A stretch of DNA of 15,061 bases, taken from NCBI GenBank assembly GCA_947490035.1, contig CANLGS010000025.1:1-15061 (forward strand), read 5' to 3'. A program made the position numbers and the translations under genes. How positions within the stretch are numbered: the stretch's first letter is position 1; the number at the start of each line of letters is the position of its first letter. This document shows, piece after piece, positions 443 through 14,959 of the stretch. This DNA comes from Gemmataceae bacterium (lineage in GTDB: Bacteria > Planctomycetota > Planctomycetia > Gemmatales > Gemmataceae). A model generated the notes under the pieces. The model saw only the letters and a list, made by a program, of their open reading frames with translations. It was not told the DNA's origin and did not search any database.

Positions 443-2494
443 ATGTTCCTTCTCATCGCTCTCGCGCTTTCCGCCGCGCCCGCTCACACGCCGCTCGCGT
501 CGTGCGCGTGGGTGCGGGCCGAGAACGACGGGGCCGGGGCCGGGTTCGTCGTCGACGCCGAGAAGCGGTTGCTCGTCACCTGTCGGCACGTCGTCGCGGA
601 CCGCAAGAAGGTCGATACCTTCCTCCCCTGGCACCGCGACGGCGAACTCGTCACCGACCGGCGCGAATACCTCCGCAACCGCGCCGCGCTCCGCGAACGC
701 GGGTTGCTCGTCACCGGCACCGTACTGAAGATTAGCGACGAACTCGACCTCGCGCTGCTCGAACTCGATTCACTTCCGCGCGGCACGAAGGCGGTCACCT
801 TCTCCGCGCGAGTGCCGCAACCGGGCGATGCGCTTCGCATCATCGGGCACCGGCTCGACCTCGACACCGTGTGGAACGTGACTGTCGGCCCGCTGCGCGC
901 GTCGGGCAAACTCGCGGACGGCTACTTCTGGCGCGGTAAGAAACTCGCCCTCGACGCGCACACGCTCGTCGCGCAATTCCCCACCGAAGAGGGCGACTCC
1001 GGCGGCCCGGTGTTCGACGCGCGCGGCGAGGTGGTGGGCATGGACTGCGCGCTGCGCCGGAACTGCCCGCTCGCGGCCGTCGTCATTTCCGCGAGCGACG
1101 TGCGCCGCTTCGCAAGCGTCTCCGACGTTCCCGCGAAGAAGGCCGAACCCGCTCCGATTGCCGACGCCCTCATCCGCGCGACGGTGTGGGTGAAGCCGAC
1201 CGCGACCGACGTTCACATCGCGGGCGTGCTGATCGAAAACGACCTGATACTCACAAGCGCGCGCGGCCTGACCACCGCGGACCGCGTGGGCGTCGCGCTG
1301 CCGCTGCGTGCCGGCGACCGGTGGGTGAGCGAGCGCGGCGCCTACCGCGACCCGCTCGCGCTGCACCTCCGCGCCGCGTGGCGCAGTGGCACGGTTCTCG
1401 CGCGCGACACCACACGCGATCTCGCGCTCATCAAACTCGATGCGGGTTCCGACGAGATGAAACCGCTCGCGCTCGCGGACGGCGTGCCGAACGCAGGCGA
1501 CGCCTTGCACGCGATGAGTCACCCCGGCGGGTTGGAGTTCGCGTGGGTCTACGCGAACGGCTCCGTCCGGCAGCGCGGCAAGGTCGCGCTCGACGTGGGT
1601 GAGAAGGCGCCGCTGGTCGCGGCGCTCGTGTGTCAACTTCCCGCACAGGCCGGTTCGCCCGGCGGACCGCTGGTGAACGCGAAGGGCGAACTGGTCGGCG
1701 TGCTGGCGTCGCGCGAAGGCGCGCAGTTGGTGGGCTATGCCGCGACGACCGGCGAGATTCGCACGTTCTTGGACGTGGCACTTCGCGACCGCCCGGCGCG
1801 CACGCTCGCGGGTCTGGTCGCGCGCGTCGAAGCAATCCCCCGGCAGCAGGCGGTTCTGCTCGCCCGCGCGCTGGCGAAGCGCGCCGAAGAACGCCGCGCC
1901 GCGGGCCGGTTCGCGGAGGCGAAGCGAGACTGTGACAACGCGCTGTCACTCGACCCCGGTTGTGCGGCCGCGCGCCTGTGCCGGGCGCTCATGTCTGAGC
2001 CAGACTTGGCGCTCGCGGAACTCGACGCGGCCGTGGAGAAGGCGCCATTCCACCGCGACGCGCTCGTGCTGCGGGCGTCGCTCGCGACCGCCACGAAGGA
2101 CTACCGCAAGGCGCGCGGCGACGCGGAGCGCGTTCTCGATGTTCACCCCGCGGACGCGGGCGCGCGCGAGTGGCTGGCCCGCGCGCTGCTCGGTCTCGGC
2201 GACGAGGCGAAGGCCGCTACCGCACTCGGCGATTTGGTGCGCACTGACGCACAACGAATGAAAACCGCCGCGGGCGTGATGCTGTCGCACGCCGACGCGC
2301 TGGAACAAAAGTTCCCTGGTGCGCCCGGCATCGCCGCGGGCTGGCTCGTGAAGGCGCTCACCGCGACCGAGAAAGGCGCACGCGACCCGAAGACGAAGGC
2401 CGCGGTCGCGGAGGTGCTGAAGGCCGCCGGCGCCGCGAAGGACAACGCGGAACGCCTGAAGGTGCTGCACGCCGGGGTGCGAGCGCTGAGGTAG
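443..2494 (+). CDS. Secreted double trypsin-like serine protease with C-terminal TPR region
   Basis: The 683-residue product starts with a short hydrophobic signal-like stretch (residues 2-13), so it is probably exported. The first trypsin-fold domain (about 20-225) keeps a full S1-type triad: His49 in TCRHVVAD, Asp102 in ELDLALLELD and Ser186 in GDSGGPV. A second related domain (about 240-445) has the same fold signatures, but Arg274 replaces the His (TSARGL) and Pro406 replaces the Ser (GSPGGPL); only Asp326 remains. It is therefore probably a non-catalytic binding domain. Residues from about 470 to the end are helical with TPR-like repeats (for example around 484-515 and 550-600), suggesting protein-protein contact. 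The start at 443 has only a weak GGA ribosome site, but the signal sequence begins there. The TAG stop lies inside the GTAG of a palindromic repeat. The substrate is unknown. Confidence 0.82.
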   Translation: MFLLIALALSAAPAHTPLASCAWVRAENDGAGAGFVVDAEKRLLVTCRHVVADRKKVDTFLPWHRDGELVTDRREYLRNRAALRERGLLVTGTVLKISDELDLALLELDSLPRGTKAVTFSARVPQPGDALRIIGHRLDLDTVWNVTVGPLRASGKLADGYFWRGKKLALDAHTLVAQFPTEEGDSGGPVFDARGEVVGMDCALRRNCPLAAVVISASDVRRFASVSDVPAKKAEPAPIADALIRATVWVKPTATDVHIAGVLIENDLILTSARGLTTADRVGVALPLRAGDRWVSERGAYRDPLALHLRAAWRSGTVLARDTTRDLALIKLDAGSDEMKPLALADGVPNAGDALHAMSHPGGLEFAWVYANGSVRQRGKVALDVGEKAPLVAALVCQLPAQAGSPGGPLVNAKGELVGVLASREGAQLVGYAATTGEIRTFLDVALRDRPARTLAGLVARVEAIPRQQAVLLARALAKRAEERRAAGRFAEAKRDCDNALSLDPGCAAARLCRALMSEPDLALAELDAAVEKAPFHRDALVLRASLATATKDYRKARGDAERVLDVHPADAGAREWLARALLGLGDEAKAATALGDLVRTDAQRMKTAAGVMLSHADALEQKFPGAPGIAAGWLVKALTATEKGARDPKTKAAVAEVLKAAGAAKDNAERLKVLHAGVRALR

Positions 2495-2583
2495 GTGCCG
2501 GTTGCCGAGCGGCACGGGATAGCCCGACTGGAAGCGAGACGGTCCGTCCCGGAACGATGCAACTTGCGAAGCCGTGTTCTGAA
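2491..2583 (+). repeat. Degenerate REP-like repeat unit, copy 1
   Basis: The first 36 bases (2491-2526) match 2584-2619 with a single difference (G/C at the 11th position). The rest also resembles the second unit, ending in the shared GCGAAGCCGTG, so the two are divergent tandem copies offset by 93 bases. It begins with GTAG followed by an imperfect hairpin with arms GTGCCG and CGGCAC. The GTAG overlaps the TAG stop codon of the protease gene. Confidence 0.8.
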
Positions 2584-2691
2584 GTAGGTGCCGCTTGCCG
2601 AGCGGCACGGGATAGCCCGCGAGTGAGCGATACGGACACGCCCGAAGTGATAGAACGTGCGAAGCCGTGCCGCCCGGCAAGCGGCACCTAC
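2584..2691. repeat. Inverted REP pair (REPIN-like element), 108 bp
   Basis: Bases 2584-2610 and 2665-2691 are inverted copies over 27 bases with one mismatch. Each end is itself a hairpin preceded at its outer edge by GTAG. On the left, arms GTGCCGCT and AGCGGCAC enclose TGCCG. On the right, read from the other strand, arms GTGCCGC and GCGGCAC enclose a seven-base loop. Outward GTAG heads on paired hairpins are the known layout of REP doublets (REPINs) recognised by RAYT transposases in gammaproteobacteria. No transposase gene is seen here. The element ends only 14 bases before the next gene's ATG, so its right arm lies in that gene's leader. Confidence 0.8.
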
Positions 2692-2704
2692 CCGGAGTGG
2701 CGGC

Positions 2705-3835
2705 ATGTCGCAATCGTTCGACGTGATCGTGCTGGGCGTGGGCGGCATGGGTTCCGCCGCGTGCTTCGAGCTGGCACGCCGGGGCCGGCGCGTGCTGGGG
2801 CTGGAGCAGTTCCCGCTGGTTCACGCGCGCGGCAGTTCGCACGGGCACACGCGCATCATCCGCACCGCCTACGCCGAAGGCCCGGCTTACGTGCCGCTCG
2901 CACAGCGCGCGTTCGCGCGGTGGTACGAACTCGAACAACTCACGGGGAGGCACCTGCTCACCGACTGCCTCTGTCTGAACGTCGGGCCGCCGGGCAGCGA
3001 ACACGTCGAGGGCGTGCGCGCGTCTGTGATCGCACACCAACTCGCGGCCGAAGAACTCACCGGCGACGAGATCAACCGCCGCTTCCCCGCGTTCAACTTC
3101 CCGGCCGATTACAGCGGCGTCCTCGAGCAAGCCGCCGGCTTCCTGTACGTGGAAGAGTGCGTTCGCGCGCACATTGACAGTGCGGTGTCACTGGGCGCCG
3201 AGATTCACGCGGAGGAACCCGTTCGCGGGTGGAAGTTGGTTGGCGACGGCGTGGAAGTGACTACCGACAAGGGCACCTATCGCGCGGCGAAGCTGGTCGT
3301 CGCGGCGGGCGCGTGGGCGACGAAGTTGCTCGCGGACATCGGCGTTCCGCTCCGCGTCATGCGGCAGGTGCTGCTGTGGTTCGGCGCGGGAACGAAACCG
3401 GAGTTGTTCCGACGCGACAACTTCCCCATCTTCATCGCGGACGTGCCGGGGATGCCGTTCTACGGGCTGCCCGCAATCGACGCGTTCGGCGCGAAGGTGG
3501 CACGCCACTACGGCGCGCCGGAACTCCCCGACCCGACCGGCGTGGCGTGGGAAGTGACCGGCGACGATGTCCGCGCGATGCGCGACAACTTCGCCGGGCT
3601 GTTGCCGGGGTTGGGCGAGTTCACGAAGGGTCAAGTGTGCATGTACACGGTCACGCCTGACCATCACTTCGTGATCGACATTCACCCGGCGTTCCCGCAG
3701 GTGAGTGTCGCGTGCGGGTTCTCCGGGCACGGGTTCAAGTTCGCGTCCACCGTGGGCGAAATCCTTGCCGACCTCGCGGAGAAGGGATCGACGCGGCACG
3801 ACATCGCGCTGTTCTCGGCGCGCCGAACCTTCTGA
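2705..3835 (+). CDS. FAD-dependent oxidoreductase, monomeric sarcosine oxidase / N-methyl amino acid oxidase type
   Basis: The 376-residue product matches the usual size of monomeric sarcosine oxidase and N-methyltryptophan oxidase. It opens with a Rossmann beta strand and a GVGGMG dinucleotide-binding motif (11-16). It carries SSHGHTRIIR (44-53), the segment holding the active-site His and Arg of the family. Lys264 in GAKVARHYG sits where the oxygen-activating lysine is expected. Cys312 in CMYTVTPDHHFVID is at the covalent FAD attachment site, and GFSGHGFKFAS (338-348) is the C-terminal signature. Family members oxidise N-methyl amino acids to formaldehyde, the free amine and hydrogen peroxide in the cytoplasm; the substrate here cannot be read. 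The ATG at 2705 is chosen because GGAG (2694-2697) lies seven bases upstream and the FAD motif begins there; an in-frame start at 2657 would lie inside a repeat. It is convergent with the next gene. Confidence 0.88.
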   Translation: MSQSFDVIVLGVGGMGSAACFELARRGRRVLGLEQFPLVHARGSSHGHTRIIRTAYAEGPAYVPLAQRAFARWYELEQLTGRHLLTDCLCLNVGPPGSEHVEGVRASVIAHQLAAEELTGDEINRRFPAFNFPADYSGVLEQAAGFLYVEECVRAHIDSAVSLGAEIHAEEPVRGWKLVGDGVEVTTDKGTYRAAKLVVAAGAWATKLLADIGVPLRVMRQVLLWFGAGTKPELFRRDNFPIFIADVPGMPFYGLPAIDAFGAKVARHYGAPELPDPTGVAWEVTGDDVRAMRDNFAGLLPGLGEFTKGQVCMYTVTPDHHFVIDIHPAFPQVSVACGFSGHGFKFASTVGEILADLAEKGSTRHDIALFSARRTF

Positions 3836-3886
3836 CCGCCGGTTCTGTCCGTGGAGCGCGGTCGCCTCGCCCGCACCACAATAAGA

Positions 3887-3913
3887 CCGGTCACGGAGTG
3901 ACCGGACCACATT
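3887..3913 (-). repeat. REP-like hairpin with GGA loop and ACCACATT tail
   Basis: A perfect 8-bp stem (CCGGTCAC at 3887-3894 and GTGACCGG at 3898-3905) encloses GGA and is followed by ACCACATT. Read on the minus strand it is AATGTGGT plus a TCC-loop hairpin, the same plan as the ends of the element at 6851-6928 but with a different stem. It sits between the convergent stop codons at 3835 and 3921. It might block read-through in both directions, but no T tract follows it. Confidence 0.7.
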
Positions 3914-3920
3914 GAGCCAA

Positions 3921-5021
3921 TCACATCGCCGCAAGCGGGTGCTTGCGGTTCTTCAGCGGCAAATCGACTGGCCGCTCCAGCCGGTGCGACTCGTACACCG
4001 CCATGATCATTTCCAGAGCCGCGCGGCCGTCGCTGATGCCGTCGAGCGGCGCGCGGTCCTTCTCCATCGCCTCGATCAGGTCGTTCACGATCAGGATGTT
4101 GCCGTTGTCGAGTTCCTTCGCGTTCAGCGTCTCCGGCTTGCCCAGCCCCGCGGACGTGATCTCCTGCCACGGCGCCTTCTTCGCGCCGAACATGCCACTC
4201 GGGTCTTCGCACAACAGCGCGACGGGAAGAATGCCGTAGCCGAGGTGGATGGTGCCCTTCGTGCCGCGCACTTCGAGCCAGTAGCGCGTACTCGCGCCGT
4301 CCTTCGCGACGTGCGTCACGTAACTGCCGACCGCGATTCCGGCGAAGCCGTAGGTCGCGTGAATGTGGTCGCCCACGATCGGCCCGATCTGTTCGCCGCC
4401 CTGCCGCACATCTCCCGCGACCGCCTTGCGCCCACCTTGTTGGATGCGTGCGAAGCACCACTTGGCGTCGCCCGCGATGTGGCGCATGAGGTCGAACGTG
4501 TGCGTGCCGAGGACCATGAGGTCTTCGCCGCCGCCGCGCTTGTCCTCCTTGCCGTGCCCGCGAAGCTCCATCACGTCGCCGATCTTCCCGTCCTTAATCA
4601 ACTCCTTCACCACCTTCAGGCGCGGGCTGTACGCGGTCTGGTGCGCGATCGCGCATTTGACGTGGTGCTTCTCGCACGCGGCCACCATCTCGTCCGCCTG
4701 CTGAAGCGTCTGGCTGACCGGCTTCTCCAGGAAGATCGACGCGCCGTGTTCGGCGCACGCGAGGACCATGTCGCGGTGGCAGTCCGGCTGGCGGTCCGCG
4801 ACGCTCACGATCTGCGGCTTCTCTTTCTCCAGCATTTGCTTGTAGTCGGCGTAGGCGTTCTTCGCGCCGAGGCGCTTCGCGGCGGCGGCGCGGCCGGTTT
4901 CGTTCTCGTCGGCGACCGCGACGATTTCCGCCTTGTCGCACTTCAACCAGACGGTGTCGAGGCCGTGGCCGTAGGCGCCTTTGCCGGTCCGACCGATCAC
5001 CGCGACGCGATACTTGGGCAT
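3921..5021 (-). CDS. Gfo/Idh/MocA family NAD(P)-dependent oxidoreductase
   Basis: The 366-residue protein has an N-terminal Rossmann domain starting YRVAVIGRTGKGAYGHG, with acidic residues after the second strand (VAVADENE, 35-42) where NAD(P) ribose is held. The family signature EKP lies at 99-101, with Lys100 as the conserved catalytic and cofactor-contacting residue. The C-terminal alpha/beta domain carries LGTHTFDLMRH (171-181), the usual Asp/His active-site segment. Members oxidise or reduce sugar and inositol-like substrates; planctomycetes have many copies and the substrate here is unknown. The ATG at 5021 has AGGAG on the minus strand (5030-5034) eight bases upstream, which settles the start; an in-frame extension to 5546 would overlap the divergent gene. 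It is divergent from the 5127 gene with about 105 bases between. Confidence 0.88.
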   Translation of the reverse strand: MPKYRVAVIGRTGKGAYGHGLDTVWLKCDKAEIVAVADENETGRAAAAKRLGAKNAYADYKQMLEKEKPQIVSVADRQPDCHRDMVLACAEHGASIFLEKPVSQTLQQADEMVAACEKHHVKCAIAHQTAYSPRLKVVKELIKDGKIGDVMELRGHGKEDKRGGGEDLMVLGTHTFDLMRHIAGDAKWCFARIQQGGRKAVAGDVRQGGEQIGPIVGDHIHATYGFAGIAVGSYVTHVAKDGASTRYWLEVRGTKGTIHLGYGILPVALLCEDPSGMFGAKKAPWQEITSAGLGKPETLNAKELDNGNILIVNDLIEAMEKDRAPLDGISDGRAALEMIMAVYESHRLERPVDLPLKNRKHPLAAM

Positions 5022-5126
5022 GTGTCTGGCTCCTGAGAGGTTGTTCGCGCCTGATTCTCTTCCTTCGCGCTGTGGTTCGCAACCGTCTGCGTGGAGTATC
5101 ATGAAGACAACTACGAGGGCGCGGCG

Positions 5127-5456
5127 ATGTACGGTCGGAACTACAACTTCGCGTGGATGCTGCTGTGGCTGGCGGTGGTCGTGTTCATGTTGGTGCGCGA
5201 GTTCGTGCTGCCGGCGCGGATGCGCGACCAGATCGGCGGGCCGAACGGCGGGCTGGCGGTGGTGGTGGCGCTGGCGCTGGCGCTTTACAACTTCACGCGG
5301 TGGTGGGCCATGCGTGCCGCCTACGACCCGACGCGCGGGGTCCGCGTCAACCCGCTGGCCGAGGCGCGCTACGACCCGGACAACCCGCCGCTGCCGGTCG
5401 TGCCGAACCCGGAACTCGACTTCACTAAGCCCAATCCTGACAAGCCAGCCGAGTAG
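5127..5456 (+). CDS. Small membrane protein of unknown function
   Basis: The 109-residue product has two likely membrane segments (about 8-25 and 42-60) followed by a polar, proline-rich tail that ends DKPAE. I do not recognise the family. The ATG at 5127 is preferred because GAGGG (5115-5119) lies seven bases upstream and the hydrophobic part begins soon after; a GTG at 5091 would add 12 mostly polar residues (MEYHEDNYEGAA) with no ribosome site. It is divergent from the Gfo/Idh/MocA gene. A weak TATCAT at 5097-5102 could be a -10 box, but I see no convincing -35. The TAG stop lies in a GTAG that begins a hairpin-forming sequence. Confidence 0.6.
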   Translation: MYGRNYNFAWMLLWLAVVVFMLVREFVLPARMRDQIGGPNGGLAVVVALALALYNFTRWWAMRAAYDPTRGVRVNPLAEARYDPDNPPLPVVPNPELDFTKPNPDKPAE

Positions 5457-5501
5457 GGACGCAAGCGTCTTGAGAAACACGGCCCCTGCGGGTCCGACGC
5501 T
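5453..5501. repeat. Possible REP-like sequence after the small membrane protein gene
   Basis: A GTAG overlapping the stop codon is followed by a short perfect hairpin (GACGC, AA, GCGTC; 5458-5469). The end of that hairpin (AGCGTC) is repeated in inverted form as GACGCT at 5496-5501. The GTAG-plus-hairpin layout resembles the stronger repeats elsewhere in the window, but no second copy of this exact sequence is present, so the call is tentative. Confidence 0.4.
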
Positions 5502-5536
5502 AAACATCGCTGGCTGTGCGCGAATGGAATGGGGAT

Positions 5537-6400
5537 ATGGGCACAATCACGTTTGACCCTGCGAAGCGCGACTACCTCCTGGCGGTGCTGCGCGACCTCG
5601 GCGGCGCGGCGGTCGCGTTCAGCGGCGGCATCGACAGCACCGTCGTCGCGAAGGCCGCGTTCCTCGCGCTCGGGAATCGCGCCGTCGCCGTCACCGCCGA
5701 CAGCGCGAGCGTGGCCCGCACCGAACTCGATGACGCGCGTCGGCTCGCCGCGCTCATCGGCATCAGGCACGTCGTTGTCCGCACCGACGAGTTCAGCAAC
5801 CCGGCGTACCTCAAGAACGACGGCGCACGCTGCTACCACTGCAAGACGGAACTGTACACCACGGTCGAACGCCTGCTGCCGGAACTTGGGGTGCCATTCA
5901 TGGTGAGCGGCGCGAACCTCGACGACCTGGGCGACTACCGGCCGGGGCTGGTCGCGGCGGCGGAACACGCGGTGCGGCACCCGCTCCAAGAGGCCGGGTT
6001 CACGAAGGCGGACGTTCGCGCGCTCGCGCTCCACTGGGAACTTCCCACCTGGGACAAGCCGGCGGCGCCGTGCCTGTCGAGCCGCATGGCGCCGGGCGTC
6101 GCGGTCACGCCGGAGCGCACCAAGCGCGTCGAGGACGCGGAAGCGTTCCTGCGCACGCTCGGTCTGCGCGAGTGCCGCGTGCGCTACCACGACGGCGACC
6201 TGGCTCGCGTCGAGGTGCCGCTGGGCGACGTGGCGCGGCTCGCGTGCGACCCGGTGCGAAGCGAACTCGCGCGCGTGCTGCACGCGCTGGGGTTCAAGTT
6301 CGTGACGCTCGACCTCGACGGCTTCCGCAGCGGCAGCCTGAACGAACTCGTGCCGCTCGAGTTGAAGGTGCAATTCAAGACAAAGAGAGAAACACAATAA
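5537..6400 (+). CDS. larE: LarE-type ATP-dependent sacrificial sulfur transferase
   Basis: The 287-residue protein is a PP-loop ATP pyrophosphatase: AFSGGIDST (27-35) binds ATP and activates the substrate by AMP transfer. Further signatures are RCYHCKTELY (98-107), SGANLDDLGDYRPG (124-137) and PAAPCLSSR (175-183). Cys179 is at the position of the sacrificial cysteine that donates sulfur in Lactobacillus plantarum LarE. LarE makes thiocarboxylates on pyridinium-dicarboxylate mononucleotide for the nickel-pincer cofactor of lactate racemase and related enzymes. The length matches the family (about 270-290). LarB, LarC and LarA genes are absent from the window, so this copy is an orphan here and the exact acceptor is not proven. 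The start at 5537 is chosen because the domain begins directly after; an in-frame GTG at 5516 is possible. The ribosome site is weak. Confidence 0.87.
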   Translation: MGTITFDPAKRDYLLAVLRDLGGAAVAFSGGIDSTVVAKAAFLALGNRAVAVTADSASVARTELDDARRLAALIGIRHVVVRTDEFSNPAYLKNDGARCYHCKTELYTTVERLLPELGVPFMVSGANLDDLGDYRPGLVAAAEHAVRHPLQEAGFTKADVRALALHWELPTWDKPAAPCLSSRMAPGVAVTPERTKRVEDAEAFLRTLGLRECRVRYHDGDLARVEVPLGDVARLACDPVRSELARVLHALGFKFVTLDLDGFRSGSLNELVPLELKVQFKTKRETQ

Positions 6401-6544
6401 GGCACAAAGGCAGAAGAAGAAGAGCCGCAGATGACGCAGAGGGACGCAGATTAAAGCCAAGCAGAAGAGTTCTTCAACACAGTCCTGTCTTCTGTCTTGA
6501 TCTGCGTTCTTCTGCGTTATCTGCGGCTCTTCTGCCTTTGTGCC
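6401..6544. repeat. 144-bp imperfect inverted repeat of the CGCAGAT type
   Basis: Left arm 6401-6453 and right arm 6498-6544 are inverted copies: both outer ends read GGCACAAAGGCAGAAGA, followed by GAGCCGCAGAT, ACGCAGA and ACGCAGAT on the respective strands. The left arm carries a few extra bases. The arms consist of a short phased motif (CGCAGAT about every 10 bases), and the sequence is clearly lower in GC than its surroundings. It begins at the base after the larE stop codon. It could fold as a long hairpin in the transcript. Similar CGCAGAT-type repeats are common in planctomycete and environmental genomes, as I recall; that is not checked here. Confidence 0.8.
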
Positions 6545-6580
6545 GATCGTGCTTCTCCAGAATCATTCCGAGGTGCCAAC

Positions 6581-6841: not shown

Positions 6842-6950
6842 CTTCGCCGCAATGTGGTCCGCCGCTCCGCGGCGGTCTTTGTTTTTGCATCACCAGAAGA
6901 CGACCGCCGCGGAGCGGCGGACCACATTCCGGTGGGTCTGACTTCTCCGC
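6834..6950. repeat. 17-bp direct repeat flanking the palindromic element
   Basis: GGGTCTGACTTC followed by G or T and CCGC occurs at 6834-6850 and again at 6934-6950, exactly 100 bases apart with one mismatch. The two copies bracket the inverted repeat at 6851-6928. The left copy includes the TGA stop of the small gene. It looks like a target duplication or a slippage duplication. Confidence 0.7.
6851..6928. repeat. Perfect 27-bp inverted repeat (REPIN-like element), 78 bp
   Basis: Bases 6851-6877 and 6902-6928 are exact reverse complements, separated by 24 bases that include a short T-rich run. Each arm begins at its outer edge with AATGTGGT and contains a 7-bp hairpin, CCGCCGC and GCGGCGG around a TCC loop. 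The outward-facing head plus TCC-loop hairpin is the same plan as the single hairpin at 3887-3913. It starts 10 bases after the upstream stop codon, so it may also act as a transcript end signal. Confidence 0.85.
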
Positions 6951-8560: not shown

Positions 8561-8877
8561 CGGTCGCTGCTTGTCGGGGCTGCGGCCGGGTCATCGCGGT
8601 CAAGGCCGGTTCGTCGGCCGCGTGCCCGAACTGCGGGTGGTCGAGTGACGCCCCGCGCGCGACCAAACCGTTCCTGCCCGATCTCCGCGACGGGTTGGCG
8701 CTGGCTCGCGGAGCCAACGGTCTCTCCGTTCTTCTTTCGCTTGGGTTGCTCGGCGTTCAGGTCTTTGTCGTTTCCGTTCCCGGCCCGGATGCCGCACGGT
8801 ACGGTCTGCCGCTCGCCATCGTTTTGGGAATCGGGCTTCTGATCGCGTTGATTGGGCACTTGGCGGGGCAGTTCTAA
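8557..8877 (+). CDS. Zinc-ribbon membrane protein, N-terminal part of a gene cut by an in-frame TAA
   Basis: As it stands this encodes 106 residues: a zinc ribbon (Cys6, Cys9, Cys23, Cys26), a short linker and two membrane segments (about 55-73 and 83-103). It overlaps the upstream gene by four bases (ATGA), indicating an operon. The reading frame stays open after the TAA at 8875-8877 and continues with three more hydrophobic segments to 9267. Residues around the stop (IGHLAGQF, stop, CAVAPASHGATF) align with an uninterrupted stretch of the upstream paralogue (IGRLFSGRGPRNSGTRGLIF). I therefore read it as the first part of a roughly 236-codon gene. It may still make a short protein. Function unknown. 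Confidence 0.7.
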   Translation: MTVAACRGCGRVIAVKAGSSAACPNCGWSSDAPRATKPFLPDLRDGLALARGANGLSVLLSLGLLGVQVFVVSVPGPDAARYGLPLAIVLGIGLLIALIGHLAGQF

Positions 8878-9267
8878 TGTGCGGTCGCACCGGCATCGCA
8901 CGGCGCCACGTTCGCGATGGGGTCCGCGATGTGTACCGCGTTCGCGGGTCTGCTGTTCGCGTGCATGGCGCTGTCGGGTCAGTTGGGCACTGCGGTCATC
9001 GTAGCGAGCGCGCTGTTTCTGTTGGCCGTGGTGCTGTGGGTGCTGTTCTTTTGCCGGCTGGCCGTGGGTCTGGGCGACCCTAAATTTCGCGGCGCGACAC
9101 GGGCATTCGTCGCGGGCTGTGGGCTGTCGTTCTTGGTCGTCGTCGTGATGATGGCCCGTGTGACGACTGCGGATCTCGCTCGCGATCCTTCCGAAGCGAT
9201 TATCTGGCAACTGAGAGCCGGCGCGCCGGCAATGTCGTGTTTGGCGTTGGTTACCACTTCTTTCTGA
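8878..9267 (+). pseudogene. C-terminal continuation of the zinc-ribbon membrane protein after the nonsense codon
   Basis: The same frame as the preceding gene is open from directly after its TAA to the TGA at 9265-9267. It holds about three membrane segments, followed by a soluble tail with a final hydrophobic patch. The first in-frame ATG is at 8917, but no ribosome site precedes it, and 13 plausible codons between stop and ATG would be left out. Its segment FFCRLAVGLGDPKFRGATRAFV resembles FWFLTGLTASGLALNRPGVARAVGFV-type sequence in the upstream paralogue only in spacing of Leu, Pro and Arg-Ala residues. A separate gene starting at 8917 is the alternative, but I consider it less likely. Confidence 0.62.
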
Positions 9268-9350
9268 ACATCGCCGTGCGCGCCGCCTCCACCCGCTTAG
9301 CGCAGACAGCGGTCTGAACCGCGGAACACACAACCGACATGCGTTCGGAA

Positions 9351-9575
9351 TCACGCTTTCACGGGCAGCAACACGAGCGGGTCTTCGCGCACTTCGATTT
9401 CGGAGGGTCCAGGTCGGAGGTTGAGACGGAGGCGGTAGATTTGCGATCCGCCCGGTCCGAGTGGACCGCGCAACTCGATCACCCGCCCGCGCAACTTGGA
9501 ATAGCGGATCCTGACCCGGTCACCCAGTTTGAAGACGAGGGCCGGCTTCGCTTCACTCTCTTGCTGCTCTGCCAC
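9351..9575 (-). CDS. Small basic protein of unknown function with KOW-like core
   Basis: From the GTG at 9575 this encodes 74 residues. The core reads FKLGDRVRIRYSKLRGRVIELRGP, a pattern of alternating basic and hydrophobic residues with Gly that resembles a KOW or SH3-like small beta barrel, as found in some RNA- and ribosome-associated proteins. The tail LRLNLRPGPSEIEVREDPLVLLP is beta-rich. The GTG is preferred because a strong GGAGG lies eight bases upstream (minus strand, 9584-9588). An ATG at 9623 would add 16 residues but has no ribosome site and lies in a palindrome. It is divergent from the DUF2293 gene. The family is not certain and no partner can be named. Confidence 0.6.
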   Translation of the reverse strand: MAEQQESEAKPALVFKLGDRVRIRYSKLRGRVIELRGPLGPGGSQIYRLRLNLRPGPSEIEVREDPLVLLPVKA

Positions 9576-9620
9576 GGTTTTGGCCTCCAAGTCACGGAAC
9601 CCACGGCGCACGACGCAACT

Positions 9621-9634
9621 CATCGTATACGATG
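9621..9634. promoter_or_regulatory. Perfect 14-bp palindrome, possible operator
   Basis: CATCGTATACGATG reads the same on both strands. It lies in the 129-base gap between the divergent starts at 9575 and 9705, where a dimeric regulator could control both genes. It is more AT-rich than its neighbours. No matched -10 or -35 boxes are clear. That it is an operator is inference from position and symmetry. Confidence 0.4.
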
Positions 9635-9704
9635 CCGTCGAAACTTGTGGAGGCGCGGCGTCTGGCGCTTCACGCGAGCGAGTCGAACCGCCGATACTAC
9701 CTGA

Positions 9705-10400
9705 ATGAAACCGAACACCGACAGCACGACGTTCGCGCCCGGGCCGACGCCGAACACGGTTCGCGCGCCGGACGGCGCCGTTCGCACCATCCCCGACGGT
9801 TGGGTGAACGTGCCGCCCGGCGATGCGGCCCTCACGCGCCGCGTCCGCGCTGCCGGCGAGAGTTGGTCGGTCGCGGAGAATCGCGGGCGCAAGTTGTTCT
9901 CGCGCGGCGTGTGGGCGCCGGCCGACACCGTCGCGCGGGTGAAGGCGGAACTCGAAGTGGAACGCTCCACCGAGAGTTACGCCCGCAAGCGCGCGGCCGA
10001 CACCGGGCGGCGCGAGAAGGCGCAGACCGAGTACGTCGAAGAGTTCTGGCTGGCGGTGCGCACGTTCCTGAACTTCCACGCGAACCACGCCGAACTCGCC
10101 GACCGGCTCGCGCGCGTCGTCGCCGATCACGCGACGCCCGTCGGCAGCGGCACGGTCGCTCGCACCAAGCGCATCCCGGTCGAAGACCGCGCCGAAGCCG
10201 CGGTCATCGCGTGGCTGCGGCACCAGACTACCGGTTACGATTCCATGACCATCGCGCGGGTGAAGGGCAAGCGGCGCGAGGTGCGGCGGATGCTCGCGCG
10301 CCGCTCGCAGGAGTTGCTCGGGCGCTACCGCAGCGGCGACACGCCCGCCGAGGGCTGTCCACTTCAGAAGGCGCTGGCGCCTCTGGCGAAGGCGGTTTAG
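9705..10400 (+). CDS. DUF2293 domain-containing protein
   Basis: The 231-residue soluble protein ends in a DUF2293 region (about 158-215). Its signature is PVEDRAEAAVIAWLRHQTTG, then YDSMTI and KGKRREVRRMLARRSQELL, rich in conserved Arg and Lys. The N-terminal part has GWVNVPPGDAALTRRVRAAG (32-51) and GRKLFSRGVWAP (61-72). The middle is a helical basic region with HATPVGSGTVARTKRIP (142-158). Such two-part proteins occur in many bacteria. The biochemical role of the family is not established, though the basic, arginine-rich C-terminus suggests nucleic acid contact (inference). The ATG at 9705 has no clear ribosome site; it is the first start after the divergent region and leaves the conserved N-terminus intact. 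It is convergent with the zinc-ribbon gene 36 bases on. Confidence 0.82.
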   Translation: MKPNTDSTTFAPGPTPNTVRAPDGAVRTIPDGWVNVPPGDAALTRRVRAAGESWSVAENRGRKLFSRGVWAPADTVARVKAELEVERSTESYARKRAADTGRREKAQTEYVEEFWLAVRTFLNFHANHAELADRLARVVADHATPVGSGTVARTKRIPVEDRAEAAVIAWLRHQTTGYDSMTIARVKGKRREVRRMLARRSQELLGRYRSGDTPAEGCPLQKALAPLAKAV

Positions 10401-10436
10401 CGTTGGACCCGGAGGGCCAAAGGTTGCCGCGAGCGG

Positions 10437-10643
10437 TCACGCGGGAATGGCGGCGACGGCCGTCGCGCGGACCGCCCAGCCGGTCGCGGTCGCGCTGACC
10501 TTGCCGTGTTCGCCGAACACGCTCACGGTCGCGTGGCAGCGCGGGCACGCGCACTGGTACTGCGCGCAGTCGGACCCGCGCTCCGCTTCGACCTTGAACG
10601 GCCGGTTGCAGTTCTGGCACTTCGCGTCGAACAGGATGAACAT
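10437..10643 (-). CDS. Small zinc-ribbon protein
   Basis: This 68-residue protein has Cys9 and Cys12 (CQNC), then Cys33 and Cys36 (CPRC), spaced as in a single zinc ribbon, plus two extra cysteines (26 and 31). The tail is short and Ala/Val-rich (about 50-68), too short for a sure membrane segment. The start at 10643 is well supported by GGAGG on the minus strand (10651-10655), seven bases upstream; an in-frame extension would run through the repeat cluster. It resembles the zinc-ribbon N-terminal domains of larger planctomycete proteins, such as the one at 7085, but stands alone. The function is unknown; zinc binding is inferred from the cysteine spacing. Confidence 0.7.
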   Translation of the reverse strand: MFILFDAKCQNCNRPFKVEAERGSDCAQYQCACPRCHATVSVFGEHGKVSATATGWAVRATAVAAIPA

Positions 10644-10686
10644 TGTGGACCCTCCGTGGAACGGGCGAGGTTGTTGGTTTGAGTGA

Positions 10687-10832
10687 GTAGTCCTCACGCT
10701 CCGCGTGAGGTTCGGGTCAGGTGCCTTTGCCGTCACACCGTGATCGCACCTCACGCGGAGCGTGAGGACTACTCTCCCTGAAGACCCTCACGCGGAGCGT
10801 GAGGACTACTCTCCCTGAAGAACTACTCTCCC
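10687..10832. repeat. REPIN-like pair with tandemly duplicated right end
   Basis: Bases 10687-10710 and 10749-10772 are exact 24-base inverted copies, and 10786-10809 is a further identical copy of the right arm. Each contains an 8-bp hairpin (CCTCACGC and GCGTGAGG around GGA) with GTAGT at its outer 5' edge. The right arm and its trailing bases form a 37-base tandem unit (10749-10785, 10786-10822). A truncated third piece, ACTACTCTCCC, follows directly. It lies between a minus-strand start (10643) and a minus-strand stop (10836), so it may also end transcription of the downstream-strand gene. Confidence 0.88.
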
Positions 10833-10835
10833 CGC

Positions 10836-11419
10836 TTAGACTGTCTTCCGGCGGAAGCGGCGGAACAGGCCGACCAGCGGCGGCCCCAACCCGGCCAGCA
10901 CGAGCGTCGCCGGTTCGGGCACGCCCGGCGGCGGGGCCGTGACCGTGGTCGGAACCATCACCTCGGTCACGTTCGTGTCGTACCGCCGTCCGCGGACCGG
11001 GCGTTGCGCCCGACGAAGAGGCTCTGCTCGCCGGTCCCGAACTGCGACGAGGCCCAGAAGTTCCCCAGCCCGAGCTGGCCCGTGGGGATGGTCGGGCCGT
11101 TGTACGTCCAGATCAGGTTCGGGGCGGTGGGGTCGTCGAAGATGGTCACGTTGGCCGGCAGCGGGCTGACCGCGGGCGTCGAGAGGGTCCAGCCTTCGGG
11201 CGAGGCGCCGGACCCGGCGAGGAGGCCGTTGAAGTTGTAGATGCCGAAGTAGTCGCCGGCCTGGAGCTTCATGTCGCTGGGCAGGACGATGGCGTAAGTC
11301 CAGCGGAAGTTCCCGCCCTCCGGGGTGACGGTCACCGTGGTCGGGACGAGGCCCGCGTAGGCGGGGGTGGTGGCGAGTGCGGCCACGAGTACGAGGGCGA
11401 CCCGGCGGGTGCGGAACAT
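10836..11419 (-). pseudogene. PEP-CTERM secreted protein with a one-base frameshift
   Basis: The frame from the ATG at 11419 encodes a clear signal peptide (basic start, hydrophobic core, TPAYA cleavage region). A beta-rich domain without cysteines follows (GGNFRWTYAIVLPSDMKL; NLIWTYNGPTIPTGQLGLGN). It then runs into a stop at 10967. The neighbouring frame, open to 10836, carries VPEPATLVLAGLGPPLVGLF and RRFRRK, a textbook PEP-CTERM anchor (Pro-Glu-Pro, membrane segment, basic tail). The two halves join if one base is restored near 10981-10990, giving about 194 residues. PEP-CTERM proteins are exported and processed by an exosortase; the domain's own role is unknown. Either the gene is decayed or the sequence has a one-base error. 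There is only a weak purine-rich ribosome site before the start. Confidence 0.82.
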
Positions 11420-11800
11420 GGGGGTCTCTTTTGGTGCAAGGGCGGGCGAAGGCCGCGGCGGGGGTCGGCGCGAACCGGGGAATCGTGTCAACCACAAACC
11501 CGCCCGCGGCGCGACGATAATTTGGGAATGGTGTAACCGATGTGGCAACGAGCGGGTATGATGGCCGTGGGCGGAACTTCCGCCCGACAGGAACAGGTGA
11601 CAATTCCGCCGCGAACTCGATTTGTCTGCTCTTGGTTCCCTTCTGAGCTAACCCTCACAACCCCAAGACCGCCAAACCGCCGCCGCAAAGAAACCGCTCG
11701 CCCCTCTGGGCGGGCCGGGTCGCCCGCTCTTGACGGTACGCGGCACTCCGCCGCGTGCCCTTCTGCTTCCGGGCCGAATGGCCCAGTAAGGTGCGCGATC
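11420..11800. other. Intergenic region and leader upstream of the RRM gene, with two hairpins
   Basis: I see no convincing gene in these 381 bases. A 17-base palindrome lies at 11569-11585 (GGGCGGAA, C, TTCCGCCC). A second hairpin lies at 11738-11756 (ACGCGGC and GCCGCGT around ACTCC), with a CTCC loop like the other REP-type hairpins. The part after about 11590 may be the untranslated leader of the RRM gene. The region also holds the promoters for both divergent neighbours, though no clear -10 and -35 pair stands out. Confidence 0.5.
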
Positions 11801-12124
11801 GTGGGCAAGAAGTTGTACGTCGGGAACTTGGGGTACGGTGTGACGGACGATCAGCTGCGGACGATGTTCGCCCCCTACGGGAGCGTCCAGACCGCTCAGG
11901 TCATCACGGACCGGGATACCGGCCGGTCGAAGGGCTTCGGCTTCGTCGAGATGAACTCCGACCAGGAAGCTCAGGCGGCGATCGCCGGCATGAACGGCCA
12001 GATGGCCGACGGCCGCGCGCTGACCGTGAACGAGGCCAAGCCGAAGGAAGCCCGTCCGGGCGGCGGCGGTGGTGGCGGCGGCTACGGCGGCGGCGGTGGC
12101 CGCAGCGGTGGCGGCCGCTACTAA
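11801..12124 (+). CDS. Glycine-rich RRM RNA-binding protein
   Basis: The 107-residue protein is a single RNA recognition motif followed by a glycine-rich tail. RNP2 is KLYVGNL (4-10) and RNP1 is KGFGFVEM (44-51), with aromatic residues at the RNA-stacking positions (Tyr6, Phe46, Phe48). The domain runs to about residue 81. The tail (about 86-107) is nearly all Gly with Tyr, Arg and Ser, as in cyanobacterial Rbp proteins and plant glycine-rich RNA-binding proteins. It is expected to bind single-stranded RNA in the cytoplasm. Some bacterial relatives are cold-induced, but that is not shown here. The start is the GTG at 11801, with AAGGTG (11788-11793) seven bases upstream and the domain starting at once; an in-frame ATG at 11540 would add a non-conserved, arginine-rich segment. 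A strong hairpin follows the stop. Confidence 0.92.
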   Translation: MGKKLYVGNLGYGVTDDQLRTMFAPYGSVQTAQVITDRDTGRSKGFGFVEMNSDQEAQAAIAGMNGQMADGRALTVNEAKPKEARPGGGGGGGGYGGGGGRSGGGRY

Positions 12125-12140
12125 CCCCGGCGCGTGTTGA

Positions 12141-12170
12141 GGGCGGAACGCGGAAGGCCACGTTCCGCCC
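12141..12170 (+). terminator. Hairpin after the RRM gene, probable terminator
   Basis: A perfect 10-bp stem (GGGCGGAACG at 12141-12150 and CGTTCCGCCC at 12161-12170) with a 10-base loop lies 16 bases after the stop at 12124. The sequence after it (GTGTTGTGTG) is only moderately T-rich, so it is not a classic intrinsic terminator. The stem resembles GGGCGGAA of the palindrome at 11569-11585, so it may also be a repeat. Confidence 0.5.
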
Positions 12171-12196
12171 GTGTTGTGTGACAGTCGCCCGCGCGG

Positions 12197-12421
12197 TCAC
12201 TTGACCGCGACGGTCCCTTGCCCGGCGAAGGAATAGGTTTTGCCGTTGACCGCGTAGCTGAACACCACGGCTCCGTTCGGCACGGTGGTCGAGAGCGTCA
12301 CGTCGTACATGCCCGCGAGCTTCCCCGTCAGCGTCAGTTTCCCTCCGGCGGTGCTGCCCTTGGTGACGGTGACTCAGAACGCGAACCGGTTCGCGGTGCC
12401 GGGTCGCGAGGTCGTGTCGTC
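12197..12421 (-). pseudogene. Remnant of a gene with an in-frame TGA
   Basis: The minus frame from 12373 to the TGA at 12197-12199 reads as good protein. It includes GGKLTLTGKLAGMYDVTLST, then VPNGAVVFSYAVNGKTYSF and GQGTVAVK, with high G/C at third positions. Upstream, the same frame has a TGA at 12374-12376, beyond which about 15 more plausible codons continue (ending RPGTANRFAF) before the pattern fades near 12421. There is no good start in the open part. It therefore looks like the C-terminal, beta-rich end of a secreted or cell-surface type protein that has lost its 5' part. The upstream edge runs toward the HtrA promoter. The family is not recognised. Confidence 0.45.
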
Positions 12422-12537
12422 CCCCGTCGTAGGAGAGGTGCGCGGGAAACCGACGTGTGACCGGCGCGGCAAAGATTTTGCAAAGTGGCAGCGAAGGTGA
12501 CGCTCTGCCGTTGTGCGAAGTGAAGACCAATCGCCTC

Positions 12538-12546
12538 TGCTATAAT
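12538..12546 (+). promoter_or_regulatory. Extended -10 promoter of the HtrA-type protease gene
   Basis: TGCTATAAT is a perfect extended -10 (TG, one base, TATAAT) for the housekeeping sigma factor. It lies 33 bases before the ATG at 12580, in a local AT-rich dip in otherwise GC-rich DNA. There is no good -35 at the usual distance, which fits the extended -10 type. Transcription would start near 12553, giving a leader of about 27 bases with GGAG at 12568-12571. Confidence 0.62.
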
Positions 12547-12579
12547 CACTTCAAGTTACCGCACCCCGGAGCCACACCA

Positions 12580-13980
12580 ATGAAGCGCCTGCCGCTCGCC
12601 ATCGGGTTCCTCGCAATCGGTCTGTTCGGCGGGATGTACGCCACGCAGCTTTCCAGCCAACCCGCGGTGCCGGCGCTCAACCCGCCGCTGACGGGGCGCG
12701 AGTGGCAGTCGGTCGCGCCCGTCGTGAAGCGCGTCATGCCCGGCGTGGTGTGCATCGAAGGCAAGGGCCGCGCGAAGCGCGTCGCGGGCGAGGACACCGA
12801 CCCCGGCTTCGGCTCCGGCATCCTCATCGACCCAAACGGCGTCATCCTCACGTGCAACCACGTCGTCGCCGACCTCGACTCGGTCGAAGTCACCCTCAAC
12901 GACGGTCGCAAGTTCACCACCTCCGACATCCGCCTCGACCCGAAGACCGACCTCGCGCTCGTGAAGATCGAATCGAAAGACCCGCTGCCGGTCGTCGAGT
13001 TCGGCGACAGCGACGCGATGGAAGTGGGCGACCGCGTCCTCGCGATCGGCGCGCCCTTCGGCCTCACCGGGTCCGTGTCGAGCGGCATCGTGAGCGCGAA
13101 GAGCCGCAACAACTTGAAGCTGAACACGTCCGAAGACTTCCTCCAGACGGACGCCGCGATGAACCCCGGCAACAGCGGCGGGCCGCTCGTGAACATGGAC
13201 GGTCTGGTGGTCGGCCTCACGTCCGCGATCAAGACCCGCTCCGGCGGGTTCCAGGGCGTCGGCCTCGCGGTGTCGAGCAACCTCGCGAAGAAGACCGGCG
13301 CCGACCTGCTCAAGAACGGCGGCGCCCGCCGCCCGAGCTTCGGCGTCGCGGTGCGCGACCTCGACGAGGAGAGCGCGCGGAAGGCCGGCGCGAAGACGAC
13401 GAGCGGCGTGGTCGTCATGCGCGTGTTCGAGGAGTCGCCCGCGGCGAAAGCCGGCGTCACCGTCGGCGACGTGATTACGAAGATCAACGGCGAAGCGATC
13501 AAGGACACGCGCGACGTGCAGCGGATCACCGCCGCGCTGCCAGTGGGCCAAGTTGTTGACGTGCTGCTTTGGCGCGACGGCAAGTTCTACGTCGGCAAGG
13601 TGAAGGTGGAAGAGGAGCGCCGGGTGCTGAAACCCGACGCGGCGGCACCGGCGCCCCCGGCCCCAATGCCGCTGCCGGGCGGCGTGACCGCCGACATGGT
13701 CGGCCTTTCGCTGACCGACCTCACCGCCGAATCGGTCAAGAAAAACGGCTGGCCGGCGGGTCTGAAGGGCGCGGTGATTACCGACGTGAAGAAGAACAGC
13801 CTGGCGGAGAAGTCGGGCCTCGCGCGCGGGCTGATTGTGATGAAGGTGGACAAGACCGCGATCACCTCGGCCGCGACCTTCGACCAGGCGCTGCAAGCGG
13901 CGAACACCGAGAAAGGCGCGCTGTTGCACGTGCTTCGCGCAAACGGCGACGTGGACTTCGTCGTCTTGAAGTTGAAGTGA
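12580..13980 (+). CDS. HtrA/Deg-family periplasmic serine protease with two PDZ domains
   Basis: The 466-residue protein starts with a signal sequence or N-terminal anchor (about 4-22). The trypsin-fold domain (about 42-245) has the full triad: His94 in TCNHVVAD, Asp124 in KTDLALVKI and Ser199 in NPGNSGGPLVN. PDZ 1 (about 253-345) includes VVVMRVFEESPAAKAGVTVG; a Pro/Ala linker (352-368) leads to a second PDZ-like domain (370-466) with a Lys-rich SLAEKSGLARG loop. This is the DegP/DegQ/DegS architecture: ATP-independent cleavage of misfolded proteins in the cell envelope. The ATG at 12580 has GGAG eight bases upstream, and an extended -10 promoter lies at 12538-12546. It appears to be a single-gene unit, ended by a large inverted repeat seven bases after the stop. 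The degP/degQ/degS subtype cannot be decided, so no symbol is given. Confidence 0.94.
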   Translation: MKRLPLAIGFLAIGLFGGMYATQLSSQPAVPALNPPLTGREWQSVAPVVKRVMPGVVCIEGKGRAKRVAGEDTDPGFGSGILIDPNGVILTCNHVVADLDSVEVTLNDGRKFTTSDIRLDPKTDLALVKIESKDPLPVVEFGDSDAMEVGDRVLAIGAPFGLTGSVSSGIVSAKSRNNLKLNTSEDFLQTDAAMNPGNSGGPLVNMDGLVVGLTSAIKTRSGGFQGVGLAVSSNLAKKTGADLLKNGGARRPSFGVAVRDLDEESARKAGAKTTSGVVVMRVFEESPAAKAGVTVGDVITKINGEAIKDTRDVQRITAALPVGQVVDVLLWRDGKFYVGKVKVEEERRVLKPDAAAPAPPAPMPLPGGVTADMVGLSLTDLTAESVKKNGWPAGLKGAVITDVKKNSLAEKSGLARGLIVMKVDKTAITSAATFDQALQAANTEKGALLHVLRANGDVDFVVLKLK

Positions 13981-13987
13981 CGGGTTT

Positions 13988-14132
13988 GGTCTTGTCCCTC
14001 TCCCCTTGCGGGAGAGGGTGGCGAGGCTTTGCGAGACGGGTGAGGGGTGAGCGACTCGGCGCGTGGAGCTTTACCCCTCACCCGTCGGCGAAGCGCCGAC
14101 ACCCTCTCCCGCAAGGGGAGAGGGACAAGACC
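13988..14132. repeat. 145-bp inverted repeat of CCCTCTCCC type
   Basis: Left arm 13988-14048 and right arm 14073-14132 are inverted copies, identical over the outer 33 bases and over the inner ACGGGTGAGGGGT, with mismatches between. Each arm holds a 9-bp hairpin (CCCTCTCCC and GGGAGAGGG). The whole can fold into a very stable structure with a 24-base loop. It begins seven bases after the HtrA stop and ends 31 bases before the next start. Repeats with this CCCTCTCCC/GGGAGAGGG core are, to my knowledge, found in many unrelated bacteria. It may end the HtrA transcript. Confidence 0.85.
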
Positions 14133-14163
14133 GAGCAGTCTCCATCCCACCAGAGACCCAACG

Positions 14164-14634
14164 ATGATCCCGTTGCCCACAATCGATGTGCTGGACGCGG
14201 TCACGATCCCCATTGCGTGCCCGGTGTCGTGGGACGCGATGCACGGCGACGACCGCACGCGGTTCTGCGACCAGTGCAGCCAGAACGTCCACGACGTGAG
14301 CGAACTCACCCGCGCCGAAGCGGTGCAACTCCTCACCGACGGCGACAAACTGCCCTGCCTCCGCATCTACCGCCGCCAAGACGGGCGCGTGATGACCGCC
14401 GACTGCACTACCAGGCGCGACCGCCTTTGGAAGTGGCTACACCGCCGCTCGAAGTGGGCCGCGGCGGTCTTCGCGCTGGTGTTCTTCGCAAGTTGCGACC
14501 GCCCGAAGGACTGCATTGCCGGCGGAATCGAACCTCCACCCCCCGCGCAAACCGCCGTGGAACAGGTCACCGAAAAGGCGGCACACAGCGTCGTCGCAGC
14601 GGTTGCGGCCGAAGGTCGCCGGGCCGCGCGCTGA
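14164..14634 (+). CDS. Cysteine-containing conserved domain protein with one membrane segment
   Basis: The 156-residue protein begins with a compact domain: CPVSWDAMHGDDRTRFCDQC (19-38), then NVHDVSELTRAEAVQLL (41-57) and LRIYRRQDGRVMTADC (66-81). The cysteines at 19, 35, 38, 65 and 81 could bind metal or form disulfides. This Cys-Pro-x-x-Trp-x-x-Met-x-Gly-Asp plus Cys-x-x-Cys plus RxDGxVxTxDC pattern recurs at the N-terminus of many planctomycete and myxobacterial proteins, as I recall, without a known function. A basic stretch (85-97) and one membrane segment (about 98-111) follow. The remaining tail is short and Pro/Ala-rich. The start at 14164 is chosen because the conserved domain begins just after it; the ribosome site is weak. 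In-frame upstream sequence would run through the inverted repeat. Confidence 0.72.
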   Translation: MIPLPTIDVLDAVTIPIACPVSWDAMHGDDRTRFCDQCSQNVHDVSELTRAEAVQLLTDGDKLPCLRIYRRQDGRVMTADCTTRRDRLWKWLHRRSKWAAAVFALVFFASCDRPKDCIAGGIEPPPPAQTAVEQVTEKAAHSVVAAVAAEGRRAAR

Positions 14635-14959
14635 CACCGTTCTCAACGCTCGCACCGGAACCGCCGGGGCTACTTTCAACTGAAGCTGTGAAGGATGCGG
14701 CTGGCCACCTGTGTGCCCGCCGCGTCGAACCTTACCTGTCCGGCACGGCAAAATCACCCGCGGCGTAACGCCGCAGTTGACGCTAACTCCGACCGACGGC
14801 CCCGGTGCGAGCGAAAGTCAGCATACTGCGAGATCGCACAGGCGCACAGGGCGGAAGCCCTGTGTACCAACCACCCGTGCGTCTACCCGCCATGTTCGCC
14901 TCGCGTATCATATCATCTGCCTATCCTTCGCATCTTCTCACCCCCTTCAGGCACTCACC
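14635..14959. other. Intergenic region with two hairpins
   Basis: I see no gene in these 325 bases. A 15-base hairpin lies at 14760-14774 (GCGGCGT, A, ACGCCGC). A second, longer one lies at 14845-14864 (described separately). A TATCAT pair at 14906-14916 in an AT-richer stretch might hold the -10 box of the gene at 14960, without a convincing -35. Confidence 0.5.
14845..14868 (-). repeat. REP-like hairpin with TTCC loop
   Basis: A perfect 8-bp stem (CACAGGGC and GCCCTGTG) encloses GGAA and is followed by TACC. Read on the minus strand it is GGTA, then the hairpin with TTCC in the loop. The plan (short head, GC-rich stem, loop containing TCC) matches the hairpins at 3887, 6851 and 10687, though the stem sequence differs. 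Confidence 0.6.

Follow-up and report, generated by a model that had tools for sequence, protein, structure and literature searches.

Families of REP- and REPIN-like hairpins with compensated stems, and Y1 transposase genes beside them, in a Gemmataceae draft genome

We identified a set of short hairpins, most with a GTAG or GTGG head, in a 15,061-bp stretch of DNA from a Gemmataceae bacterium (the window), which is the entire contig C25 of a draft genome (G000) of 4.67 Mb in 754 contigs that is 68% complete. A first-pass annotation had taken these hairpins for repetitive extragenic palindromes (REPs), some of them arranged as the outward inverted pairs known as REPINs (REP doublets forming hairpins), and our analysis largely supports that reading. 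Below, C designates a contig of G000, G a genome and L a locus, and the sample is the 60 largest contigs of the draft (877,471 bp), in which genes predicted by a simple codon-usage caller make up 82.8% of the sequence.

A scan for a head followed by a stem recovers the hairpins at the places where they had been noted, with GT[AG]G heads on perfect stems at 2584 (+), 2691 (-), 3910 (-), 6854 (+), 6925 (-), 10687 (+), 10772 (-) and 10809 (-). In all eight copies the head is unpaired and lies at one end of the palindrome. The GTGCCGC family is represented by an imperfect copy at 2491..2515 (+), in which six perfect pairs (GTGCCG/CGGCAC) are followed by a G-G mismatch, and by an outward inverted pair with its left arm at 2584..2608 (+; GTAG followed by GTGCCGCT / AGCGGCAC) and its right arm, from the stem-loop and head scan, at 2667..2691 (-). 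The perfect stems attributed to all the hairpins are present in the eight GT[AG]G copies and not at 2491. The GTAG head at 2491 contains the TAG stop codon of the open reading frame at 443-2494, and positions 2486-2669 form two tandem GTGCCGC units, 80% alike, with the right arm absent from the first.

The AATGTGGT-headed REPs comprise a single copy at 3887..3913 (-; stem CCGGTCAC, loop TCC) and a REPIN with arms at 6851..6875 (+) and 6904..6928 (-), both with stem CCGCCGC and loop TCC. A GTAGT-headed REPIN has its left arm at 10687..10710 (+; stem CCTCACGC, loop TCC) and its right arm at 10749..10772 (-; stem CCTCACGC), and an extra copy at 10786..10809 (-; stem CCTCACGC) is a direct repeat of the right arm. 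The last hairpin, CACAGGGC-GGAA-GCCCTGTG at 14845..14864 (+), has a degenerate head. Other copies of its family carry a GTAG head on the GGAA-loop strand, and the GGTA head and TCC loop that had been assigned to this copy both lie on the opposite strand.

Bare stem-loops in the window are only modestly above chance for G+C-rich DNA: 10 have stems of at least 8 bp and 23 of at least 7 bp, compared with 4.2 +/- 2.2 and 14.2 +/- 4.1 in 30 second-order Markov sequences, an excess too weak alone to decide. What lies well beyond chance is the genome-wide repetition of the hairpin families, which recur 37 to 175 times in the draft and 0 to 8 times in controls and so are not unique to the window. There are 37 matches to AATGTGGTCCG (control 1), 175 to the pattern TGTRGT-stem-TCC-stem-TCTT (control 8; about one in ten listed rows is the same site twice), 147 to the GTGCCGC family (GTAGGTGCCGCTTGCCGAGCGGCAC with up to two mismatches; control 0) and 43 places with CACAGGGC-N4-GCCCTGTG (control 0); for several repeat families such counts are among the places listed. 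A covariance model of head, stem and TCC loop has 156 matches at E <= 0.01, a figure without a shuffled control for which 150 of 3,819 first-look candidates were scored. In the sample 21 hairpin cores were seen at least three times, with 241 copies in total, and simple arithmetic on the scan counts gives nine perfect copies in the window, compared with a sample average for those families of about 3.4 per 15 kb.

The distribution among genomes differs by family. The TCTT-tailed TCC pattern is far over control in G000, mildly so in G007 (45 vs 13), G003 (59 vs 31) and G001 (36 vs 19), and close to control in most of 31 genomes. The CACAGGGC family occurs in 15 of the 19 genomes of the genus and in none of 12 outside it. 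The GTGCCGC family is patchy, with 134 copies in G003, 81 in G001 and 67 in G011 in addition to those in G000, a few in two genomes and none in 13 of the 19.

Copies of one family are typically paired with their heads outward. The sample has 91 cases in which two copies of one family lie no more than 150 bp apart; 70 are heads-out, 15 direct and six heads-in, and the spacers are characteristic of each family (for GTGCCGC, 15 of the 16 heads-out pairs have 58-59 bp; for CACAGACA the figure is about 19 bp). Most copies of eleven families (173 of 198) lie outside predicted genes; of the 145 copies that could be placed, 88 are in co-directional gaps, 50 in convergent and 7 in divergent ones. In most families conservation of the outer flanks ends a few bases from the head or stem, a pattern more in keeping with dispersal than with large duplications. 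The AATGTGGT REPs are often closely trailed, in direct orientation, by a TTGTGG-CACAGACA-TTCC REP (L008, L013, L028, L029, L032 and L033), whose transposase is a different gene, on C112.

The draft contains at least eight genes for HuH-tyrosine (Y1) transposases. Five were found with PF01797, a protein search adds those on C112 and C120, and NF047646, a model of the REP-associated tyrosine transposases (RAYTs), adds the one on C109. At a cut-off of 80 bits, NF047646 places the genes on C109, C112 (94.8 bits), C614 (94.7 bits) and C120 (88 bits) above and those on C581 and C34 (43.4 bits) below, with a further weak match on C150. RAYT-type transposases, to which the first-pass annotation had looked as mobilising enzymes, are thus present in this genome, some of them beside hairpins. 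A single hairpin type lies on both sides of each of the genes on C581 (GTAGT-CATCACGC-TCC), C112 (GTGG-CACAGACA-TTCC), C120 (GTGG-CACAGGCT-TCC) and C261 (CACAGGGC-GGAA); among 15,296 overlapping random 650-bp windows, none has an identical hairpin core on both sides. Two-sided repeats also occur at C109 (a longer GTAG-headed repeat, GTAGGGTGGGTCGA...), at C51 (a shared repeat containing a 5-bp hairpin and confined to this gene within the sample) and at C34 (related hairpins), and the gene on C614 begins at the contig edge, so that one side is visible. For the families of the window, C261 is the direct partner of the 14845 family. The near partner of the 10687 family is C581, with hairpins one compensated pair apart, and both stems are found at one gene in L214 and L229. 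For the GTGGT families (3887 and 6851) the partner, in G007, is alike in plan only.

The C581 protein contains the HuH motif HAHV and the catalytic tyrosine motif YIARNP (Y-x-x-N-P), and proteins of its type have an N-terminal part longer than the RAYT model covers. A fold model of the type, made from the G004 protein (67% identical; 23 sequences; mean predicted local distance difference test score, pLDDT, 85.1), has as its best match among solved folds 4er8, TnpA-REP bound to a REP hairpin (E 5e-5; template-modelling score, TM, 0.42/0.54), followed by IS200/IS605 transposases. By sequence, C581 has no match in the PDB, and C112 matches 4er8 marginally (E 0.08). A further Y1 type, at L291, L303 and L292, has hairpins edged by GGCGAA or GGCGAG, on both sides in L291 and L303; similar GGCGAACCCCG hairpins occur nine times in the sample.

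The C581-type orthologues allow the stems to be compared. The proteins were aligned from 36 loci in titled genomes, mostly Planctomycetota with a few Verrucomicrobiota; the 36 orthologues analysed comprise 34 of these loci, the distant L246 and L247 being left out, together with L194 and L196. A few of them are nearly identical to one another or represent one locus retrieved twice. A TCC hairpin is present within 500 bp in 26 of the 36, on both sides in 22, and 87 of the 102 TCC hairpins at these loci carry a GT[AG]G head. With head and loop as the only selection criteria, independently of pairing, 32 loci gave 111 sites with 8-bp arms, of which 69 were fully paired, 9 had seven pairs and 33 had three or fewer; reversed sequence gave only 7 sites, none with more than four pairs. 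Own-sample sites selected in the same way are likewise bimodal: 52 of the 69 that have at least five of seven pairs, and 35 of the 49 that have at least five of eight, are fully paired. A set of 27 distinct stems (18 perfect, 9 with one mismatch) was chosen with at least seven pairs; its 97.7% pairing is high by selection, a bias that does not extend to changes on both sides, and seven of the eight pairs are altered on both sides. The covariation score is 0.704, against 0.164 for shuffles and at most 0.089 for slid structures. Head and loop persist while the stems change in compensated pairs, and the claim that stems differ with pairing retained is well supported both by the sites chosen on head and loop and by the covariation score.

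We conclude that the hairpins are very probably REPs and REPINs, non-autonomous single-stranded DNA repeats spread and kept by HuH-tyrosine transposases (RAYT, or TnpA-REP, with one IS200-like Y1 enzyme for the 14845 family). They are copies of tiny repeats that are probably mobile, some of them probably moved by the adjoining transposases. In line with this reading, the two commonest head-stem types listed in G044, GTAGC-CCTCTCGC and GTGGT-CCTCACGC, flank its two strongest transposase matches. In the mechanism we propose, the palindrome would fold on an exposed strand, such as arises during replication. The transposase would recognise and bind the GT[AG]G head, the TCC or TTCC loop and the paired stem, cut beside the hairpin and join copies into new, mostly intergenic sites, and such movement may continue today. 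Because pairing would outweigh stem sequence, stems could drift through compensated changes into new families, with one enzyme perhaps accepting several stems.

Several observations weigh against this interpretation. The C581 protein scores 58.8 bits (57.8 in a second search) with NF047646, under the cut-off, and is for that reason termed RAYT-like. Ten of the 36 orthologue loci are without a plain TCC hairpin within 500 bp; five of these have a variant TCC-containing loop (L215, L218, L226, L228 and L230) and five have no such hairpin. The expectation of a RAYT-like transposase flanked by such repeats is borne out for C581, C112 and C120. However, no transposase gene was found beside the GTGGT families in the draft, and for the GTGCCGC family no Y1 gene has GTAGGTGCCGC hairpins on both sides among all PF01797- or NF047646-detected genes of the carriers G001, G003 and G011. 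That search gave single stray motifs near L078, in a genome without the family, and inside L202, never two-sided; L071, an IS200-like Y1 gene of G003, was dropped as a CCGCCGC partner since its hairpin is on one side only. The relative G008, 98% complete, has 48 CACAGGGC places and zero matches to PF01797 or NF047646. Lastly, the outward arrangement described in the first-pass annotation, which the majority of neighbouring copies show, is reversed in the CACAGGGC family, where three of three pairs are heads-in, with spacers of 81-89 bp that enclose a second hairpin.

This heads-in layout also favours an alternative for the 14845 family alone, namely that it is a miniature inverted-repeat transposable element (MITE) served by an IS200-like transposase and separate from the RAYT and REP system. 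The C261 protein has a YINNQ motif (Y-x-x-x-Q), reaches 50.8 of 55 bits with the IS200/IS605 model NF033573 and 17.5 bits with the RAYT model, and matches by sequence the proteins of the ISDra2 and IS608 structures; judged by these features the enzyme is IS200-like and not a classical RAYT. However, the copy number of the CACAGGGC repeats is high and their head is of the GTAG type. Moreover, the gene lacks the copy spread of an insertion sequence, since C261 is the sole copy of its type among the five PF01797 matches of the draft, apart from the different gene on C51. We consider the chances of this alternative to be even.

It appears unlikely that the GTGCCGC family owes its movement to an agent that is not a Y1 transposase, as might be suggested by its 67 to 147 copies in four genomes of the genus and by the lack of a Y1 gene with the hairpin on both sides among those detected in the three carriers inspected. 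The family is REPIN-like, with a GTAG head, mostly heads-out pairs and a nearly constant spacer. In addition, searches with a single Y1 model overlook known genes (PF01797 missed C112, C120 and C109), and the partner gene may therefore have been missed. We think it less probable still that the hairpins are relics, REP populations with dead or lost transposases that are merely decaying. The copies in G008, the two window families for which no transposase of their own was found, and the frame-shifted look of the G044 transposase beside GTGGT-CCTCACGC (G044:C392; L241 and L326), which matches in two frames with stops in the matched stretch, are all points in favour of decay. Against it, the own-sample sites are mostly fully paired, and the genes on C581, C112, C120 and C109 hold their motifs within open frames. 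The GTGGT-CCTCACGC family is abundant in G044 although the adjoining transposase looks frame-shifted; G041:C670, considered as another broken gene, was rejected because it is one open frame. Finally, the copies favour convergent gaps (50 of 145 placed copies vs 88 of 515 gaps) and avoid divergent ones (7 of 145 vs 71 of 515), which speaks for RNA elements that act as transcription terminators or stabilise mRNA, having spread through selection or gene conversion with the transposases incidental. This is nevertheless very improbable given that eleven family consensuses have no clear T run after the hairpin, that a terminator needs neither an upstream head nor outward pairing, that transposase genes are bracketed by the same hairpin, that G-U pairs fill just 4 of 216 cells in the covariation set, and that the window has zero Rfam family matches.

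A further proposal concerns recognition by the Y1 enzymes. One transposase clade of Planctomycetota and Verrucomicrobiota may recognise its hairpin by the GT[AG]G head, the TCC loop and pairing alone, in which case stems would wander, new families would arise around a single gene and one enzyme would serve several families. We advance this tentatively and think it somewhat likelier to fail than to hold. Two or more perfect stems surround one transposase at 11 of 22 loci, a count in which the similar loci L222 and L224 may not be separate cases. Outward pairs of mixed stems are found on C112 (CCGCCAC with CCGCCGC) and in G042 (CGACTCCC with CCGCTCTC); a candidate on C225 was rejected because a third copy lies in between. 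However, a strict form in which the stem does not matter is weakened by three results. Stem identity climbs with protein identity (Spearman 0.34 over 190 non-independent pairs). Among 100 listed places of the 393 in G044 (58 GTAGC-CCTCTCGC, 24 GTGGT-CCTCACGC and 14 GTAGT-CCTCACGC), head and stem go together (58/1/1/40). In the TCC families of the sample there are zero heads-out mixed-stem pairs and 23 same-stem ones. We therefore read head, loop and pairing as the probable main signals and the stem sequence as a slower one that appears to be partly matched.

Two other inverted repeats, absent from the list of the first-pass annotation in the first case, lie in the window. Positions 13988-14132 form a long inverted repeat of CCCTCTCCC-CTTGC-GGGAGAGGG hairpins, whose exact 23-base core occurs 17 times in the sample, and positions 6411-6540 contain a 44-nt inverted repeat (GAGCCGCAGATGACGCAGA...), with that 19-mer found 22 times in the sample.

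The REPINs that Bertels and Rainey described in Pseudomonas fluorescens in 2011 are reportedly outward inverted REP pairs with characteristic spacing, linked to RAYTs. Unlike those, the hairpins described here belong to many families with several transposases. Closer precedents exist. According to the portions available of Di Nocera et al. 2013 (PMC3733652), GTAG repeats occur in Planctomycetes: R. baltica has several families together with a large number of tyrosine transposases, and O. terrae has GTGG heads. The same portions describe stem variants with compensating changes and mixed-stem dimers. By description, rather than base by base, those repeats share with ours the GTAG or GTGG head, a stem of 6-9 bp, a short loop, outward dimers and intergenic placement in convergent and unidirectional gaps. 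On the evidence of those portions, earlier publication covers GTAG and GTGG REPs, the occurrence of several families in a single planctomycete, stem compensation and pairs with unlike stems; the same text does not link a TCC-loop plan to a named transposase clade that spans Planctomycetota and Verrucomicrobiota. We found no paper in which "REPIN" and "gemmata" occur together as whole words, and of six planctomycete or verrucomicrobial terms not one occurs in PMC2817692. What is new is the present lineage and its natural covariation series.

In the part of Corneloup et al. 2021 (PMC8266576) available to us, loop and head outweigh stem sequence in vitro in REPs that are perfect palindromes, and stem swaps are better tolerated than mismatches. 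The Group 3 REPtron of Stenotrophomonas maltophilia described there has, like our hairpins, a GTAG head, an 8-bp perfect stem and a 3-nt loop. However, its loop is GCT and its data are in vitro, whereas here the loop is TCC and the evidence is natural covariation. A guide rule in the same part pairs a GTAG head with a CT or CA site and GTGG with CC or CA. Of the 44 distinct flanks of the GTGG-CACAGACA family in the sample, 28 have a CT that begins three bases ahead of the head, which seems to run against this simple rule.

The excerpted text of Quentin et al. 2018 (PMC6006769) places class 3 TnpA-Y1 mainly in Planctomycetes, Acidobacteria and Proteobacteria and describes it as having a Y...Q motif, high-copy hairpins and a CnGA foot. 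It also gives GT[AG]G feet for some subclasses. C261 resembles this class in its YINNQ motif, its two-sided hairpins and its 43 places. However, the head of its family reads as GTAG-type on the GGAA-loop strand rather than as the CnGA foot of that class, and for this reason we do not file it there.

Since earlier reports cover REPs of this kind, the value of the present set lies in the covariation series and in the number of systems within one genus. It contributes a planctomycete draft, 68% complete, that contains at least eight Y1 genes, and a near-complete relative with repeats but no detected transposase. As far as the excerpted literature goes, in vitro accounts of how RAYT-type transposases recognise perfect-palindrome REPs exist for only a few systems. 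About 20 natural transposase and hairpin pairs that keep head and loop while the stem covaries would offer ready substrates for two questions, whether the enzyme reads pairing or sequence and how one REP family divides into several. The variety of stems is in this respect a useful natural experiment, and pairing-only recognition by the clade, if true, would be a natural counterpart of the in vitro selection experiments on REP recognition.

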